Shown here: piece after piece, positions 1,294-7,344 of the stretch
How the letters are laid out: each line of letters opens with the position of its first letter
How positions within the stretch are numbered: position 1 is the first letter of the stretch
NCBI GenBank assembly: GCA_963169695.1
Contig: CAUJDS010000023.1
Coordinates: 1-51,760, forward strand
Direction of reading: 5' to 3'
DNA length: 51,760 nucleotides
Origin: Bdellovibrionota bacterium
Lineage (GTDB): Bacteria; Bdellovibrionota; UBA1018; CAUJDS01
Made by a program: the position numbers and the translations under genes
Notes under the pieces: generated by a model
Database searches by the model: none
What the model was told of the DNA's origin: nothing
What the model saw: only the letters and a program-made list of their open reading frames with translations

Positions 1294-3159
1294 CTACTCC
1301 TCAGAGACAGTACGATTGAAGGTCGATGCCCAAGGAAGCTTCTTGATCTGATCCTTGTTAGCTGCAGCCTTCATGCGGCTCTCCACTCGCGTAAAGAGCG
1401 AGAGTCCTCGATTATTGAAGATGTCTTCGTAGCTTTGTCCTTTGAAGTTGGCGCCTTCATTGCTTCCACCCGACACGGCGTCAGCAACTTTGCCTAGGAA
1501 GTTGGCAATACCACGACCAAAGCCACCCGATTCCCCACCCGACTTACCGCCACCACCACCGCCGCCAGAGGCGTAGGTAGAAGAAGGAGTGGATCGTGCA
1601 AGTTGCACCTTGGCAGAATCATCCGCAGCGATGCGATCTTGTGCTCCATCCAAAGCACTCTTCACCGTATCGGCGTTGCCACCTGCAAAGGCGCCTAGGA
1701 TATCGCCTGAGGACATATTCTTGTCTTGTGCGGCTTTGATCAAACTATCCAAGTCTGCACCCGCGCGCTTTTCAAAATCCTTAAGCGCATTGGGATCCGA
1801 GAAAAAAGGCGCCAATGCTGGGTCTGCTGCGATCGCGCAAGATGCAGTAGGATCTGTACAACCCGGAAAGGCACCAGGCAAGGAGCCACCACTGGATCCG
1901 CCCGCACCATTCACCGTGTTGGTGAAGGCTCTACCTGCGCCTGAGCCGGTACCATTGCTGGCCAAGCGACCCAAAATCTGCCCTTGAGCGCCATTCGCTT
2001 GGTATTCTTCCTCGGTCTTGATCATCAACTTATCCGCTTCTGCCAAGAGCTCATTGCGCTTGCTATGATTGCTACTCGCTCCCGCAGCATTGGCAACAAT
2101 CTTCGCTGTCGCAAGAATTGCGGCACCGCAGGCGGCGTTGCGTTCGTTTTGTCTTTGCTTAGTAATTGACTCATCAGAAGCATTCATATTCTTCGCTCCA
2201 TTTTCGGTAAGAGCCTCCCCATTGGGGATACTTCCATCAGCATTTGCTTTCAAGACTTCTCCGTCTTTTCCAATGCCTTGAATAGTCTGCCCAGCTTTAA
2301 AACTTTCAGCATTTGCGAGAATGCTAGCTCCATTTTGAACTGTCGGAGCTAGATAACTCCCCAAAGTCCCCATTCCTAAGGTCGCTGTACTGGCTGAATT
2401 AAGCGCCATACCGCTCGCAGTTGCCGTCAAGGCAGCAAGCCCTCCCTGAAGGGCCTGCATTTCTTTTTGAATCGTGATGGTTGTCAAAAGGTCCACCGCT
2501 CCCGCGCCCAAGGACAATTTTTGGCAAACGCCTGGGCTAGTCGCTTCCGCGCTAGCACATTGGTACGCGCAGGTAATGGCCGGAATCGCCCAAGCTACTG
2601 CGAGTGCTTGGTTAGCAGCCTCAGCCTTCTTGTGATCTTTGGCGGCTTCGCAGATGGGGCCTACTTGGAGACCCAGCTCGCCTGTTTGAGCGATGGGATT
2701 GTCGCAAGCGTTTTGGCCGTTGTCGAGGTCTGCAAGCTTCTTGGCATCATAGGCAAAGGGGTTGCTGCGCGGATCTGCAAGCGTCAATCGCAAGCAGCAA
2801 TTGTCACGCTCGGTACCGACAGGCAAGGGCGCTCCGCTGCTGTCTTTGCACTCAGCAGCGCCACTGTTCTTACAGTTGTCCAATGCGGTCGTAAAATTCT
2901 TCAACGCCTCTGGTGAGAGCTTGTCTACAAGACCTGCCGAGTTGGGATCGGGCGCGTAGGCTGGATTGCGAAGCGCTTCTCTTAGGCAACAGTCCTTACG
3001 CTTGATGGGATCGAGTTGCGTCGAGCAACGAAAGTCACCCGCGCTATTGCACTGATCAAGGAATCCATTGAAGGTCTCAGCAGTTGCAAAGGCAGACTGA
3101 ATCGTCACTAAGGACAAAGCCAAACCCATAGCCGAAGAAAAAATAGTGGAATACTTCAC
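1294..3159 (-). CDS. Exported Cys-rich protein of unknown function, paralogue of the next gene
   Basis: This encodes 621 residues from a GTG start preceded by a G-rich Shine-Dalgarno. The N-terminus is a signal peptide (hydrophobic core to about residue 25, cleavage near AFA-TAE). Residues about 30-150 hold two copies of a Cys module ending in DCCLREAL and NCCLRLTL, each preceded by two further Cys, which suggests disulfide-bonded repeats. The middle is Ala/Gly-rich and partly hydrophobic. A Gly run (ASGGGGGGGKSGG) leads to a C-terminal segment with GLSLFTRVESRMK. The C-terminal motif, the FSDPN segment and the overall layout recur in the downstream gene, 5 bp away. I do not recognise the family. 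Export is well supported. An outer-surface or secreted role is inference. Confidence 0.85.
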   Translation of the reverse strand: MKYSTIFSSAMGLALSLVTIQSAFATAETFNGFLDQCNSAGDFRCSTQLDPIKRKDCCLREALRNPAYAPDPNSAGLVDKLSPEALKNFTTALDNCKNSGAAECKDSSGAPLPVGTERDNCCLRLTLADPRSNPFAYDAKKLADLDNGQNACDNPIAQTGELGLQVGPICEAAKDHKKAEAANQALAVAWAIPAITCAYQCASAEATSPGVCQKLSLGAGAVDLLTTITIQKEMQALQGGLAALTATASGMALNSASTATLGMGTLGSYLAPTVQNGASILANAESFKAGQTIQGIGKDGEVLKANADGSIPNGEALTENGAKNMNASDESITKQRQNERNAACGAAILATAKIVANAAGASSNHSKRNELLAEADKLMIKTEEEYQANGAQGQILGRLASNGTGSGAGRAFTNTVNGAGGSSGGSLPGAFPGCTDPTASCAIAADPALAPFFSDPNALKDFEKRAGADLDSLIKAAQDKNMSSGDILGAFAGGNADTVKSALDGAQDRIAADDSAKVQLARSTPSSTYASGGGGGGGKSGGESGGFGRGIANFLGKVADAVSGGSNEGANFKGQSYEDIFNNRGLSLFTRVESRMKAAANKDQIKKLPWASTFNRTVSEE

Positions 3160-3394: not shown

Positions 3395-4084
3395 TCATCT
3401 TCGCTTCCACGTTCTGTCCTTGGTCGCACCCTCTGAGTGCAATCGCGGAAAGCTTTGCAGATCCCGCTGGGCTTGTCTCCAAGTCACACGCCCACCCAGA
3501 GCTTCGATATAGGCACGAGTGGTAAAGGGCTCACCACTCTTGGCAAGCCGCTGAAGGACTCGCAATCGCACTTCGGTTTTTACCGCAGTACGTTTTGCCC
3601 AAGGCGCTTTGTTGATCCACGCATCGTTTGCAAAATAGCCCCACGCTGCAAAATCACGGCTTGGTTGATTCACCCATTCTTGGGCTATCTTTCCGACGGG
3701 CGACACCAATTGAAAATAGAAAAGCTGAGGCGAGTCGGGCTGGACTTCCGCAAGCATGAGCTTTTTCCAGGCCTTCCATCGTTGAAGCTCAGAACCAATG
3801 CACCTTTTCTCTAGCCGAAGGAGCGCTTCAACTTGATCGAGCAACACGCCCCAGACGGCTGGCCATGGTGACTTCAGGATTTCGACATTCATTGCTAGCG
3901 GATGGATAATTTGCCAATGCTGACTCAGCCATCGCGTGAAGATCTCGCCGAGTCGAGGGTCGAATCGTATCCATTGAGCCCAAAGCAGAAGCTCCGCTGT
4001 AGTAGGGATATGGTCTTTTTTTTGAAGTGCTTCATAAGGACCTGCTAGATCACTAAGAAGAGGTATGCGGTCGGCGCCCTTCAT
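3395..4084 (-). CDS. Winged-helix-type protein, partner of a nucleotidyltransferase
   Basis: This encodes 229 residues. The first 140 are Trp-rich, helical and unfamiliar. The last 60 look like a winged helix-turn-helix: a helix (LRVLQRLAKSG), then FTTRAYIEALGG, the probable recognition helix TWRQAQRDLQS, and a short wing rich in basic residues near the C-terminus (KDRTWKRR). The start overlaps the stop of the nucleotidyltransferase gene as ATGA, so the two are translationally coupled. In AbiE-type systems a winged-helix antitoxin is paired with a nucleotidyltransferase. The order and domain placement differ here, because in AbiE the winged-helix gene comes first. A DNA-binding antitoxin or repressor is the most likely role. 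That is inference. Confidence 0.72.
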   Translation of the reverse strand: MKGADRIPLLSDLAGPYEALQKKDHIPTTAELLLWAQWIRFDPRLGEIFTRWLSQHWQIIHPLAMNVEILKSPWPAVWGVLLDQVEALLRLEKRCIGSELQRWKAWKKLMLAEVQPDSPQLFYFQLVSPVGKIAQEWVNQPSRDFAAWGYFANDAWINKAPWAKRTAVKTEVRLRVLQRLAKSGEPFTTRAYIEALGGRVTWRQAQRDLQSFPRLHSEGATKDRTWKRR

Positions 4085-4593
4085 GGCAAATCTTGAACCT
4101 CGTCCAAGAAGTCCAAAGCCTTAGCTACTCCTGGTATCGCGCGCTTTTTAAGGGATTCGAGGTGGTCTTCTACCCATTGCAACTCGGCGCCGGCCTTCAC
4201 CAGTGCTCGAGCATGACCGAGGTCCTTCGGACGATGGGCCATGCACTTCAGGATGAGCAAGTCGTTTTTGGAGAGGCCCTTTGCCTCAAGCTGCTTGCCT
4301 TGAAAGATGGGCACCAGTCGATCGCCATAATCCGCCGGAAGCGAGAACATAAAGGTGCTGAAATAAGGATTCAGCCAATCACCTGGCAAACCCAACTCCA
4401 TTGCGACCTCTTTGACCAAAAGGTCAAACTCGCCCAAGGGCATCCCCTTCGTCACCGCATCAATGTCATGAGTAGCTATTGGAAAGTGATGGGCCAATAC
4501 CATTGCGCCACCTCCCCCAACAATGAGTTGAACGGGTTGGGGACATTTGCGATCCAAGGCGCCTAGGGCTTTCTGCATCTGTTCTGCATTCAT
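4081..4593 (-). CDS. DUF6036/AbiEii-like nucleotidyltransferase
   Basis: This encodes 170 residues. The motif VGGGGAMVLAHHF (about residues 25-37) followed by ATHDIDAVTKG carries the Gly-rich loop and the D-x-D metal-binding pair of minimal nucleotidyltransferases of the DUF6036 or AbiEii-like group. KNDLLILKCMAHRPKDLGH, further on, matches the helical part seen in such proteins. Those relatives are small nucleotide-transferring enzymes often found in toxin-antitoxin or abortive-infection modules. The gene is first in a two-gene operon with the winged-helix gene (4-base overlap). It has no Shine-Dalgarno and its promoter ends 6 bases from the ATG. A toxin role is inferred. A housekeeping nucleotidyltransferase is possible. 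Confidence 0.82.
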   Translation of the reverse strand: MNAEQMQKALGALDRKCPQPVQLIVGGGGAMVLAHHFPIATHDIDAVTKGMPLGEFDLLVKEVAMELGLPGDWLNPYFSTFMFSLPADYGDRLVPIFQGKQLEAKGLSKNDLLILKCMAHRPKDLGHARALVKAGAELQWVEDHLESLKKRAIPGVAKALDFLDEVQDLP

Positions 4594-4599
4594 GAATCT

Positions 4600-4628
4600 A
4601 TATTACGACATGCCATGAAATGTCGCAA
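4600..4628 (-). promoter_or_regulatory. Sigma-70-type promoter of the nucleotidyltransferase gene, probably leaderless
   Basis: On the minus strand the sequence reads TTGCGA, a 17-base spacer, TAATAT, then six bases (AGATTC) and the ATG. Both hexamers and the spacer are close to consensus. Transcription would begin at or next to the A of the ATG, which agrees with the missing Shine-Dalgarno. The start point is inferred from the usual -10 distance. Confidence 0.65.
4603..4628. repeat. Inverted repeat over the promoter, probable operator
   Basis: TTACGACAT at 4603-4611 and ATGTCGCAA at 4620-4628 are inverted copies with one mismatch in nine, separated by 8 bases. One arm covers the -35 box and the other overlaps the -10 box. 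A dimeric repressor bound here would block the promoter. The winged-helix partner gene is the obvious candidate for autoregulation. Confidence 0.6.
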
Positions 4629-4824: not shown

Positions 4825-7344
4825 TTAGAGGTCCTGAAGGTATCCCCGCGTATTGCCAAGTAGCACGTCGGCACAGGGATCGTTGGATGGGCCATTGCTC
4901 AGACGATGCTTTGCCAGCGCAAATCCCACAGCATCTTCCAATTCTGCAATCGCCTGGCGATATCCCGAGCCAGCCTTAAAGAACTTTGATGTCAAGGCGT
5001 CTAAAAGTTCCTCTCGATCTCCTACGAGTACATTAATTCCCAAATCTCGCTGATAGGCATCCAAGGTCTCTGCAAGCTTGAGGCCCAAGACTTCTTTGAA
5101 TTCGTGAGTAGTCTTGGGTGGCAAAAAAAGAAGGATGCGTTCCATACGGTCGACCAGGAATTCAGACAATCCGTCTCGGGCCATTTCATCCCTCAATGCC
5201 TTTTCCTCCGGCGTCGCAGAAGTCCCCCTCAATGCGGCAGCGCGAGGTTGAAAAGTCATCGTGCCACCGCCGTGGGAGCCTGTGGATCTCAAAACTGCGT
5301 CTTGTCCCGCATTGGTGGTGAAAAACATGCTTGCGCCTGCCGTGCGAATCAAGCGTCCCACCTTAGGACCTCTAGCTTCTCCATTCATGGAAGCTTGTAA
5401 GGTAAAAGAATCACTATCCATCAAGTTCAGAAGTGCATCTTGCACCCAGATAGGAGCCTTCTCGATCTCGTCAAAAAGAAAAACGGTAAAAGCATTGATC
5501 TGAATGGCGCGCGCAACTTCTCCTAGGAGTCGATCCACTGCATTCTGACCGAGGTATTGGTTCATGCTGACTTTTTTGCAGGGAAGGCCAAGCGCCGATG
5601 CATAGGCCTTGACGAGATGGGTTTTGCCAAGGCCCTTAGGTCCGGCGAGAAGGGCTCTGATCCTTGGCTTGGTTCGGTCATGGGTCCCAGCTAGGATCCG
5701 AGTCGTGGTTCGTTCTAGTGCGTCTTTGATTTCTGCCAAACCCCATACTCTTTGATCCAAACGAGCACGAAAAACCTTGAGCCTATTGGGAATCGCTTCT
5801 GGGCTGAACTCAGCGAGATCTATTTGATACAGCCGATTGGCAGCGACCCGCAGATCTTGGATGGTAAGACTCGATGACTGGCGACCATCACGGGGGAGCT
5901 GAGACAAAGCGTCGCTCAAAAGTCGCGTTGCCTTGGAGGGCTGCACCCCAATGGCATCAAACTCTTCTGAGAGACGGATGGCTTCTTGTGCAACTTCGAT
6001 AGCAAGCGAAGAGCCAAATGCTACTTGTCCCCAGTTCTGAAGCAATTTGGGAATATCCGTTGGATCTGGAGGCTTTTTATGCAGGATGGATAATCGACTT
6101 CTCAACGCTGGGTCTGCTCCAAAGGCGTGATCAAACTGTTCTTCCGTGGAGGTTCCGATGATTCGGATGGATCCTTTCCTAAGGTGAGGCTTCAGTTCTT
6201 CAAAGAAGTCATCGGGCTTGTTTAAATGAGCTCCAGACCCACGTAGAGTATGCATCTCGTCAAAGAAAAGGATGGCCCGATTCTCCCTGGCGTAGGCAAT
6301 GAGCGCGTTGAGACGAATTTCAAAAACGCCGATAAATCGAGTCCCCGCAACTAAATGACTCGCATTGACGGACCATATTTCAGTGCTGGCCGGAATATCA
6401 GGCGCAAAGCTCCCCTTGCCTACTTCCGCAGCAAACGATCGCACGAGCTCTGTTTTTCCTGATCCAGAATCACCCAGAATAACAACGCTGGGTGATTCTT
6501 TTCTGCCGAGAGCCAGCCGAAGCGCCGTAAGGTCTTGAGGATCAGCTACATAGGTGGAATCGCCCTTCACCTCGCCAACAAGTTCCCTGAAGTGGCTTGC
6601 AATATAGTCCCGAGCATTCACTAGATTGCCTTGCTCATCGATCACTTCATTCTTTTTGGCGCTCTTGGCGGACTTTTTGACGGGATCTTTGACCGCCGTC
6701 TCATCCGAAGCGTCATGGACCTCATCGCCAATAATCTGGAACTTCTTTGGGTGATAGCGACCGAAGGAGAGCAATCCAGCATCATTCAACGATACTCGCT
6801 TTTCTCCAGCTGCAAACTCTCCCAGCTTCCAAATCATCAGATCCCCTCGAATAAGATAGAAATGGTGCCTGGTTTCATTTCCAAATTTAACAAAAACGAT
6901 TTGATAATTTTGATTTTGGTATTCGAGAGTCGCATAAGCCGGTTCAGCAATGCCTTGGTTAAAATCTCCATAAGCATCAAAGAATCTATAGCGTCCGTCT
7001 CCAGTGACTGCGAGAAACCTGTCATCAAACCGCGTGGTCACTTGGATTTCCATCTTTGGTAGGAGAAACGCGGCGTAGGGTTTCTTTCCAAGAGTTACTT
7101 GTTTGGGCTTTCTCTGGGAGTCAGAAGGGATGAACCACGTCCTGCCATTGGCTATAAGAGTCTCCTCCCCTTCGACATTTCGGTAGTAGATCCCATCATC
7201 GATTCGAGTAATGAGCTTGGCGCCGTTGGCAAAGGTATTGACGTACTCCCCTTCTTTGGGCGGATCGTCTTGCGCGACGGACGTTCCTACCACCATCAAA
7301 AATGCCAAAATTCCCTTGAGTCCGATCATTTCCCTAGGGGACAT
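4825..7344 (-). CDS. Clp-like double AAA+ ATPase with N-terminal signal sequence
   Basis: This encodes 839 residues. The N-terminus (MIGLKGILAFLMVVGTSVAQ after five residues) looks like a signal peptide. An ATG five codons later (7329) may be the true start, as neither start has a good Shine-Dalgarno. Residues about 30-270 are an unfamiliar beta-rich domain. The first AAA+ module has Walker A GDSGSGKTE, Walker B ILFFDEMHTL and a ClpA-like sensor region GTSTEEQF. The second has Walker A GPKGLGKTH and Walker B FLFDEIEKAP, followed by a typical Clp C-terminal domain. ClpA/ClpB proteins remodel proteins in the cytoplasm using ATP, so an export signal is odd. The segment may instead be a membrane anchor with the ATPase facing the cytoplasm. 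No ClpP-type partner is adjacent. Confidence 0.85.
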   Translation of the reverse strand: MSPREMIGLKGILAFLMVVGTSVAQDDPPKEGEYVNTFANGAKLITRIDDGIYYRNVEGEETLIANGRTWFIPSDSQRKPKQVTLGKKPYAAFLLPKMEIQVTTRFDDRFLAVTGDGRYRFFDAYGDFNQGIAEPAYATLEYQNQNYQIVFVKFGNETRHHFYLIRGDLMIWKLGEFAAGEKRVSLNDAGLLSFGRYHPKKFQIIGDEVHDASDETAVKDPVKKSAKSAKKNEVIDEQGNLVNARDYIASHFRELVGEVKGDSTYVADPQDLTALRLALGRKESPSVVILGDSGSGKTELVRSFAAEVGKGSFAPDIPASTEIWSVNASHLVAGTRFIGVFEIRLNALIAYARENRAILFFDEMHTLRGSGAHLNKPDDFFEELKPHLRKGSIRIIGTSTEEQFDHAFGADPALRSRLSILHKKPPDPTDIPKLLQNWGQVAFGSSLAIEVAQEAIRLSEEFDAIGVQPSKATRLLSDALSQLPRDGRQSSSLTIQDLRVAANRLYQIDLAEFSPEAIPNRLKVFRARLDQRVWGLAEIKDALERTTTRILAGTHDRTKPRIRALLAGPKGLGKTHLVKAYASALGLPCKKVSMNQYLGQNAVDRLLGEVARAIQINAFTVFLFDEIEKAPIWVQDALLNLMDSDSFTLQASMNGEARGPKVGRLIRTAGASMFFTTNAGQDAVLRSTGSHGGGTMTFQPRAAALRGTSATPEEKALRDEMARDGLSEFLVDRMERILLFLPPKTTHEFKEVLGLKLAETLDAYQRDLGINVLVGDREELLDALTSKFFKAGSGYRQAIAELEDAVGFALAKHRLSNGPSNDPCADVLLGNTRGYLQDL

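Follow-up and report, generated by a model that had tools for sequence, protein, structure and literature searches.

A DUF6036 nucleotidyltransferase and a downstream winged-helix partner form a probable toxin-antitoxin module in Bdellovibrionota

The window analyzed here, a stretch of 51,760 nucleotides from a Bdellovibrionota bacterium, carries on its minus strand a putative operator followed, in the order of transcription, by a nucleotidyltransferase gene and a partner gene, which are joined by a 4-bp ATGA overlap (Table 1). The nucleotidyltransferase was matched by the Pfam family DUF6036 (PF19502) with an E value of 1.6e-12 and a score of 48 bits, above the curated cut-off of 23.6. No match to the partner was found in Pfam, NCBIfam or PADLOC, and neither protein matched a solved structure by sequence. 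An earlier note on this DNA had described a coupled pair with a winged helix at the end of the partner and a palindrome over the promoter, and all three features were borne out, by the family match, common strand and overlap, by a structural model and by the placement of the core promoter. On the same strand, the product of the adjacent gene at 4825-7344 unusually combines two AAA domains with what looks like a hydrophobic N-terminal segment, and its IetA-like PADLOC matches were confined to the AAA parts; the gene at 1294-3159 encodes an apparently secreted 621-aa protein whose N-terminal repeats are rich in Cys and for which Pfam gave no match.

Table 1. Features of the nucleotidyltransferase-partner locus, in window coordinates
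Feature	Position	Strand	Basis
Nucleotidyltransferase gene, DUF6036 pol-beta type, 170 aa, probable toxin	4081..4593	-	Pfam; MenT1 fold; invariant catalytic positions in 39 relatives
Partner gene, 229 aa, probable antitoxin and autoregulator	3395..4084	-	No family match; nucleotidyltransferase directly upstream in 38 intact loci
Catalytic motif T41-H-D43-I-D45, forming hGG-x15-DhD with V25-G26-G27	4459..4473	-	T41, D43, D45 invariant in 39/39; AbiEii spacing (PMC3985639); MenT1 T39/D41 (PMC10435456)
Catalytic motif K116...R121-x-K123-D124-x-x-H127, variant of AbiEii motifs III and IV	4213..4248	-	K116, R121, D124, H127 invariant in 39/39; MenT1 K137/D152 (PMC10435456)
Partner N-terminal helical domain, about residues 1-160, proposed to neutralize the toxin	3605..4084	-	Alignment; AlphaFold2 model; present with either type of DNA-binding end
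Partner C-terminal winged helix, about residues 165-229 and stop	3395..3592	-	AlphaFold2 model; Foldseek matches
Arg207 codon, recognition helix 202-211, proposed operator specificity residue	3464..3466	-	Arg207 with C:G in 14/14 loci, non-Arg with A:T in 16/16
Operator palindrome, 26 bp, TTGCGACAT-N8-ATGTCGTAA	4603..4628	-	Type present in 33 loci; unique in genome
Predicted -35, TTGCGA, left end of palindrome	4623..4628	-	17-bp spacing to -10 across aligned loci
Predicted -10, TAATAT, 6 nt before ATG	4600..4605	-	Sequence

The nucleotidyltransferase was modeled with AlphaFold2 (pLDDT 93.6), and its nearest folds in the PDB were those of MenT1 (8an5, 8an4), to which all of the top four matches belong, followed by ANT(2''), MenT3 and MenT4. 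The MenT1 matches were modest, with a TM of about 0.3-0.5 and a best E value of 7e-3. Alignment of 39 nucleotidyltransferase sequences showed that T41, D43, D45, K116, R121, D124 and H127 are invariant in all of them. MenT1 needs residues T39, D41, K137 and D152 (PMC10435456), and T41, D43, K116 and D124 are their respective counterparts when matched by motif. The motifs I-IV of AbiEii nucleotidyltransferases read hG[G/S]x15DhD, K...R and +DxxD (PMC3985639); we found motifs I and II exactly, including the hGG-x15-DhD spacing, motif III as K-x4-R and motif IV as an invariant +DxxH. Neither PF08843 (AbiEii) nor the PADLOC AbiEii model matched the protein, for which DUF6036 was the sole Pfam match at E values up to 1. 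By analogy with MenT, from which the target is taken, the enzyme most likely adds nucleotides to RNA, such as the 3' end of tRNA.

For the partner, AlphaFold2 (mean pLDDT 88.7) predicts a helical domain at the N-terminus and a winged helix at the C-terminus, the latter made of helices 170-183, 189-195 and 202-211 and strands 215-218 and 225-228. Foldseek searches of the PDB matched the winged helix to those of AntR, ArsR-type and Zalpha proteins; the convincing top matches were confined to this part, and no fold match to the N-terminal domain was found among the best 50. It is nevertheless the N-terminal domain that holds the most invariant positions of the partner alignment, Q37-W38-x-R40-x-D42-x-R44-L45-x-E47. 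Its Trp-rich character, which the earlier note had pointed out, is a property of this copy, with 11 Trp in the first 160 residues, and is less marked in the relatives counted, which have 5-6. In four loci (L133, L134, L135 and the copy on a Bdellovibrio plasmid, L178) the C-terminus is replaced by a Cro-type helix-turn-helix (HTH) and the N-terminal domain is retained. The best Pfam models for these Cro-type ends were HTH_37 and HTH_26, with the cut-off passed by the plasmid copy alone and weak matches for the other three; the C-terminus of the plasmid copy also resembles a regulator encoded beside a RelE/ParE toxin. Since the DNA-binding end is swapped and the N-terminal domain kept, the latter accompanies the nucleotidyltransferase independently of that end, as would be expected of a toxin-binding domain.

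The palindrome TTGCGACAT-N8-ATGTCGTAA is the single match in the window at up to two mismatches (0.00 expected from shuffled sequences) and the single match with fewer than three mismatches in the 2.79-Mb genome. This uniqueness indicates that the partner is a local regulator and rules out a role as a global one. In 33 loci the nucleotidyltransferase is preceded by TTGCGA-x-A...T-y-TCG(T/C)TA or a near variant, conserved across families. The TTGCGA element sits 17 bp from a TATAAT-like hexamer, which was sought at that spacing and matched at least four of the six positions in nearly all aligned loci, and the palindrome thus extends over the core promoter with its -35 and -10 elements. The ATG of the window copy lies so close behind the predicted -10 that the nucleotidyltransferase mRNA may be leaderless; leaders are longer in other copies.

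The base pair beside TTGCGA follows residue 207 of the recognition helix. It is C:G at each of the 14 Arg207 loci, one of which shows a T in the left half alone, and A:T at each of the 16 loci where residue 207 is not Arg, so that the two agree in every one of the 30 readable loci. On the best nucleotidyltransferase tree the label changes about five times, residue and base pair always together, with one independent contrast on well supported branches, where independent-pair statistics gave no significance. The pattern is therefore strong but statistically limited by shared ancestry. No operator of this type was found where the winged helix is divergent (L131, L132) or replaced by the Cro-type HTH (L133-L135, L178), and several of these loci have other palindromes. 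The operator is conserved and matched to the recognition helix, and binding and repression by the partner, as in the negative autoregulation of AbiE through promoter inverted repeats, are predicted from these sequences.

Searching with the partner found it in 20 genomes of a set of 58 relatives, and a profile run against 369 genomes from the phylum found it in 45, in one copy per genome. Of the 45 loci, all inspected, 38 have an intact nucleotidyltransferase immediately upstream in the same orientation, and in two of these the partner runs off the contig; the remaining loci are a contig end (G291) or remnants. The pairing is constant, and the gene order reversed relative to AbiE that the earlier note had described is supported, the nucleotidyltransferase being upstream in all intact loci. 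The distance matrices of the two proteins correlate at 0.73, compared with a best value of 0.41 among 5000 permutations, indicating that they have a common history.

No neighboring gene is constant among the 45 loci, except within one genus, where the pair lies between rmlB and rmlD in two genomes and the same junction measures only about 15-18 bp in three. In a sixth genome the junction holds a small gene with the look of a helix-turn-helix protein, followed by an AbiEii-type nucleotidyltransferase. The junction is an insertion hot spot (L193:490-1454, L113, L116, L192, L194, L196), occupied by nothing, by the pair or by an AbiEii-type pair. The pair acts as mobile cargo, and a known type of toxin-antitoxin system can occupy the same site. 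A co-inherited pair with a patchy, mobile distribution (45/369 genomes, r of 0.73, occupied and empty sites) is what is expected of a toxin-antitoxin system; that this subtype never exceeds one copy per genome counts against it.

Abortion of phage infection, which is possible for AbiE-like pairs (PMC3985639), would be compatible with a toxin-antitoxin pair as one of its roles, and the pair of one genome (G316) has an AbiEii gene no more than about 1 kb away (L125:3839-4564, PADLOC E value 1.2e-71). We consider it unlikely that the pair is a dedicated anti-phage module of this kind. The 133 proteins flanking the 45 loci gave scattered matches to defense models, the window belongs to the core chromosome, and relatives were found on one plasmid and in no viral contigs or phage records. 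The proximity to defense genes that the earlier note had proposed to check is not indicated by the neighborhoods, and placement in a defense island is rejected. Of its proposal of a toxin-antitoxin or defense module, the first part is supported, on the indirect evidence of constant pairing, operator, patchy distribution and asymmetric decay, and the second is not supported.

Degraded loci bear on which of the two genes encodes the toxin. In one genome (G330) the nucleotidyltransferase is cut to about 14 codons, with the operator and the partner remaining; in another (G011) it lacks the part bearing GGG and DxD, beside an intact partner; and in a third (G017) it is without its C-terminus and carries another residue in place of D124, and its reading frame continues into an intact partner. 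Both genes are broken or lost in four further genomes (G003, G281, G026, G322). Contig ends aside, an intact nucleotidyltransferase of this subtype was seen in no genome without the partner. A broken nucleotidyltransferase beside an intact partner, and never the reverse, is the one-sided decay that a toxic nucleotidyltransferase would be expected to show; the counts are small (3 versus 0), and some of them rest on draft assemblies.

HEPN-MNT pairs have a minimal nucleotidyltransferase as their antitoxin. The roles could likewise be reversed here, with the partner as a toxin that the nucleotidyltransferase modifies and inactivates, and the better conservation of the nucleotidyltransferase (mean identity 51%, versus 31% for the partner) fits this reading. 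It is nonetheless improbable, given that the partner persists intact without a working nucleotidyltransferase in three genomes, that the operator-reading DNA-binding domain belongs to the partner and that no HEPN-type Rx4-6H motif is present among the invariant partner positions of the alignment.

There is similarly little chance that the locus encodes a non-toxic accessory enzyme with a dedicated repressor, for example a conditional modifier of RNA, protein or a small molecule. An inducible enzyme could also be tightly autoregulated and keep its catalytic site, and the fold matches include the ANT(2'') antibiotic nucleotidyltransferases. Against this, pairing is strictly two-gene at scattered sites with no constant neighbor, the insertion point is common to an AbiEii pair, and the partner domain of about 160 residues exceeds what DNA binding needs and persists in copies that have another DNA-binding end. 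Presence in only 45 of the 369 genomes, with no constant neighbor, rules out a universal housekeeping operon.

We therefore regard it as likely that the locus is a two-gene toxin-antitoxin module, in which the nucleotidyltransferase is the toxin and the partner is the antitoxin and autoregulator, and which travels as free-standing mobile cargo. The computation shows the pairing, the conservation of the operator and its match to residue 207, the conservation of the catalytic site, the domain swap, the presence/absence polymorphism and the asymmetric decay; toxicity, neutralization, DNA binding and the tRNA target are what we infer. In the proposed mechanism, the free MenT/AbiEii-like nucleotidyltransferase would block growth, and the helical N-terminal domain of the partner would bind and neutralize it. 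The C-terminal winged helix, probably as a dimer, would bind the 26-bp palindrome that holds the -35 and -10 elements and thereby repress the pair, and the translational overlap would couple the amounts of the two proteins. Loss or depletion of the partner would release the toxin, and the module would pass from genome to genome as free-standing cargo. MenA1 causes MenT1 to autophosphorylate at T39 (PMC11375011), which suggests that neutralization could involve T41.

A search of the open literature found no paper on DUF6036, a curated family of unknown function. That the pairs form a distinct group, as had been surmised, agrees with the constant pairing, the putative autoregulatory operator, the patchy distribution and the asymmetric decay. 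The fuller claim we judge evenly balanced: that this is a previously undescribed toxin-antitoxin group in Bdellovibrionota, with a new toxin-binding N-terminal domain, an exchangeable DNA-binding end (winged helix or Cro-type HTH) and an operator that takes in the -35 as well as the -10 element and is read by a one-residue code (Arg207 for C:G, non-Arg for A:T), and in which neutralization may run through the invariant T41. If this is right, DUF6036 gains a function, nucleotidyltransferase toxins gain a new antitoxin family, and the group offers a simple, testable operator code, along with a naturally occurring domain swap in which toxin binding and DNA binding are uncoupled.

Several other DUF6036 pairs resemble the locus in part. 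The "type 2" pairs of the same phylum (L047, L048, L050-L053, L055) share the order of a nucleotidyltransferase followed by a partner of about 230 aa with a terminal HTH, but that HTH is a different one and there are up to four copies per genome. A shared DPRL..W-like stretch had raised the suspicion that their partners are homologous to the present one, which was not borne out: hhalign gave a probability of 0.2%, and a type 2 profile recovered none of the divergent members. The type 2 partners tested matched no Pfam family. In other pairs (G000 contig 55, L202, and plasmids of Brevibacillus and Tessaracoccus) a DUF6036 nucleotidyltransferase also adjoins a small partner gene, but that gene is upstream, encodes an SPxAFRxxNIFVxxNxLxR-like conserved tail and has no visible similarity to the 229-aa partner. 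The pair on contig 55 (L202: 902-1483, 1486-1992) is a second DUF6036 pair of the same genome, in the usual order, its partner having an HTH-like N-terminus and the end SPLAFRQNNIFVGENFLERA, followed by the nucleotidyltransferase; the genome also has two AbiEii genes. Upstream DUF6036 partners with the SPxAFRxxNIFVxxNxLxR-like tail, a possible toxin-binding peptide, occur in several phyla (L054:932-1974, L049:996-1953, L199:2014-3061, L200:1911-3112).

MenAT1 (Rv0078B-Rv0078A) and the other MenAT systems of M. tuberculosis are similar to the pair in that MenT1 is the nearest solved fold and the catalytic set T, D, K and D is common to both. They differ in that MenA1 genes, where linked, lie upstream of the toxin gene (PMC10435456) whereas the partner here lies downstream, in that MenA1, at 7.4 kDa, has no DNA-binding domain (PMC11375011), and in that the MenAT toxin is of the DUF1814 (AbiEii) type rather than DUF6036, with no PF08843 match here at E values up to 1. 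The type IV system AbiE (AbiEi-AbiEii) likewise combines a pol-beta nucleotidyltransferase bearing hGGx15DhD with a winged-helix partner and promoter repeats, and its inverted repeats mediate autoregulation (PMC3985639). In AbiE, however, AbiEi is encoded first and has an N-terminal winged helix and a C-terminal antitoxicity domain, whereas here the partner is encoded second and the winged helix is C-terminal. The partner has no AbiEi Pfam match and its N-terminal domain no detectable relatives, and the AbiE repeat of 11 bp-N27-11 bp contrasts with the single 26-bp palindrome that runs from -35 to -10. The pair thus works like AbiE and MenAT and is a member of neither, since its toxin domain family differs from both and its antitoxin family, domain order and gene order differ from those of AbiE.
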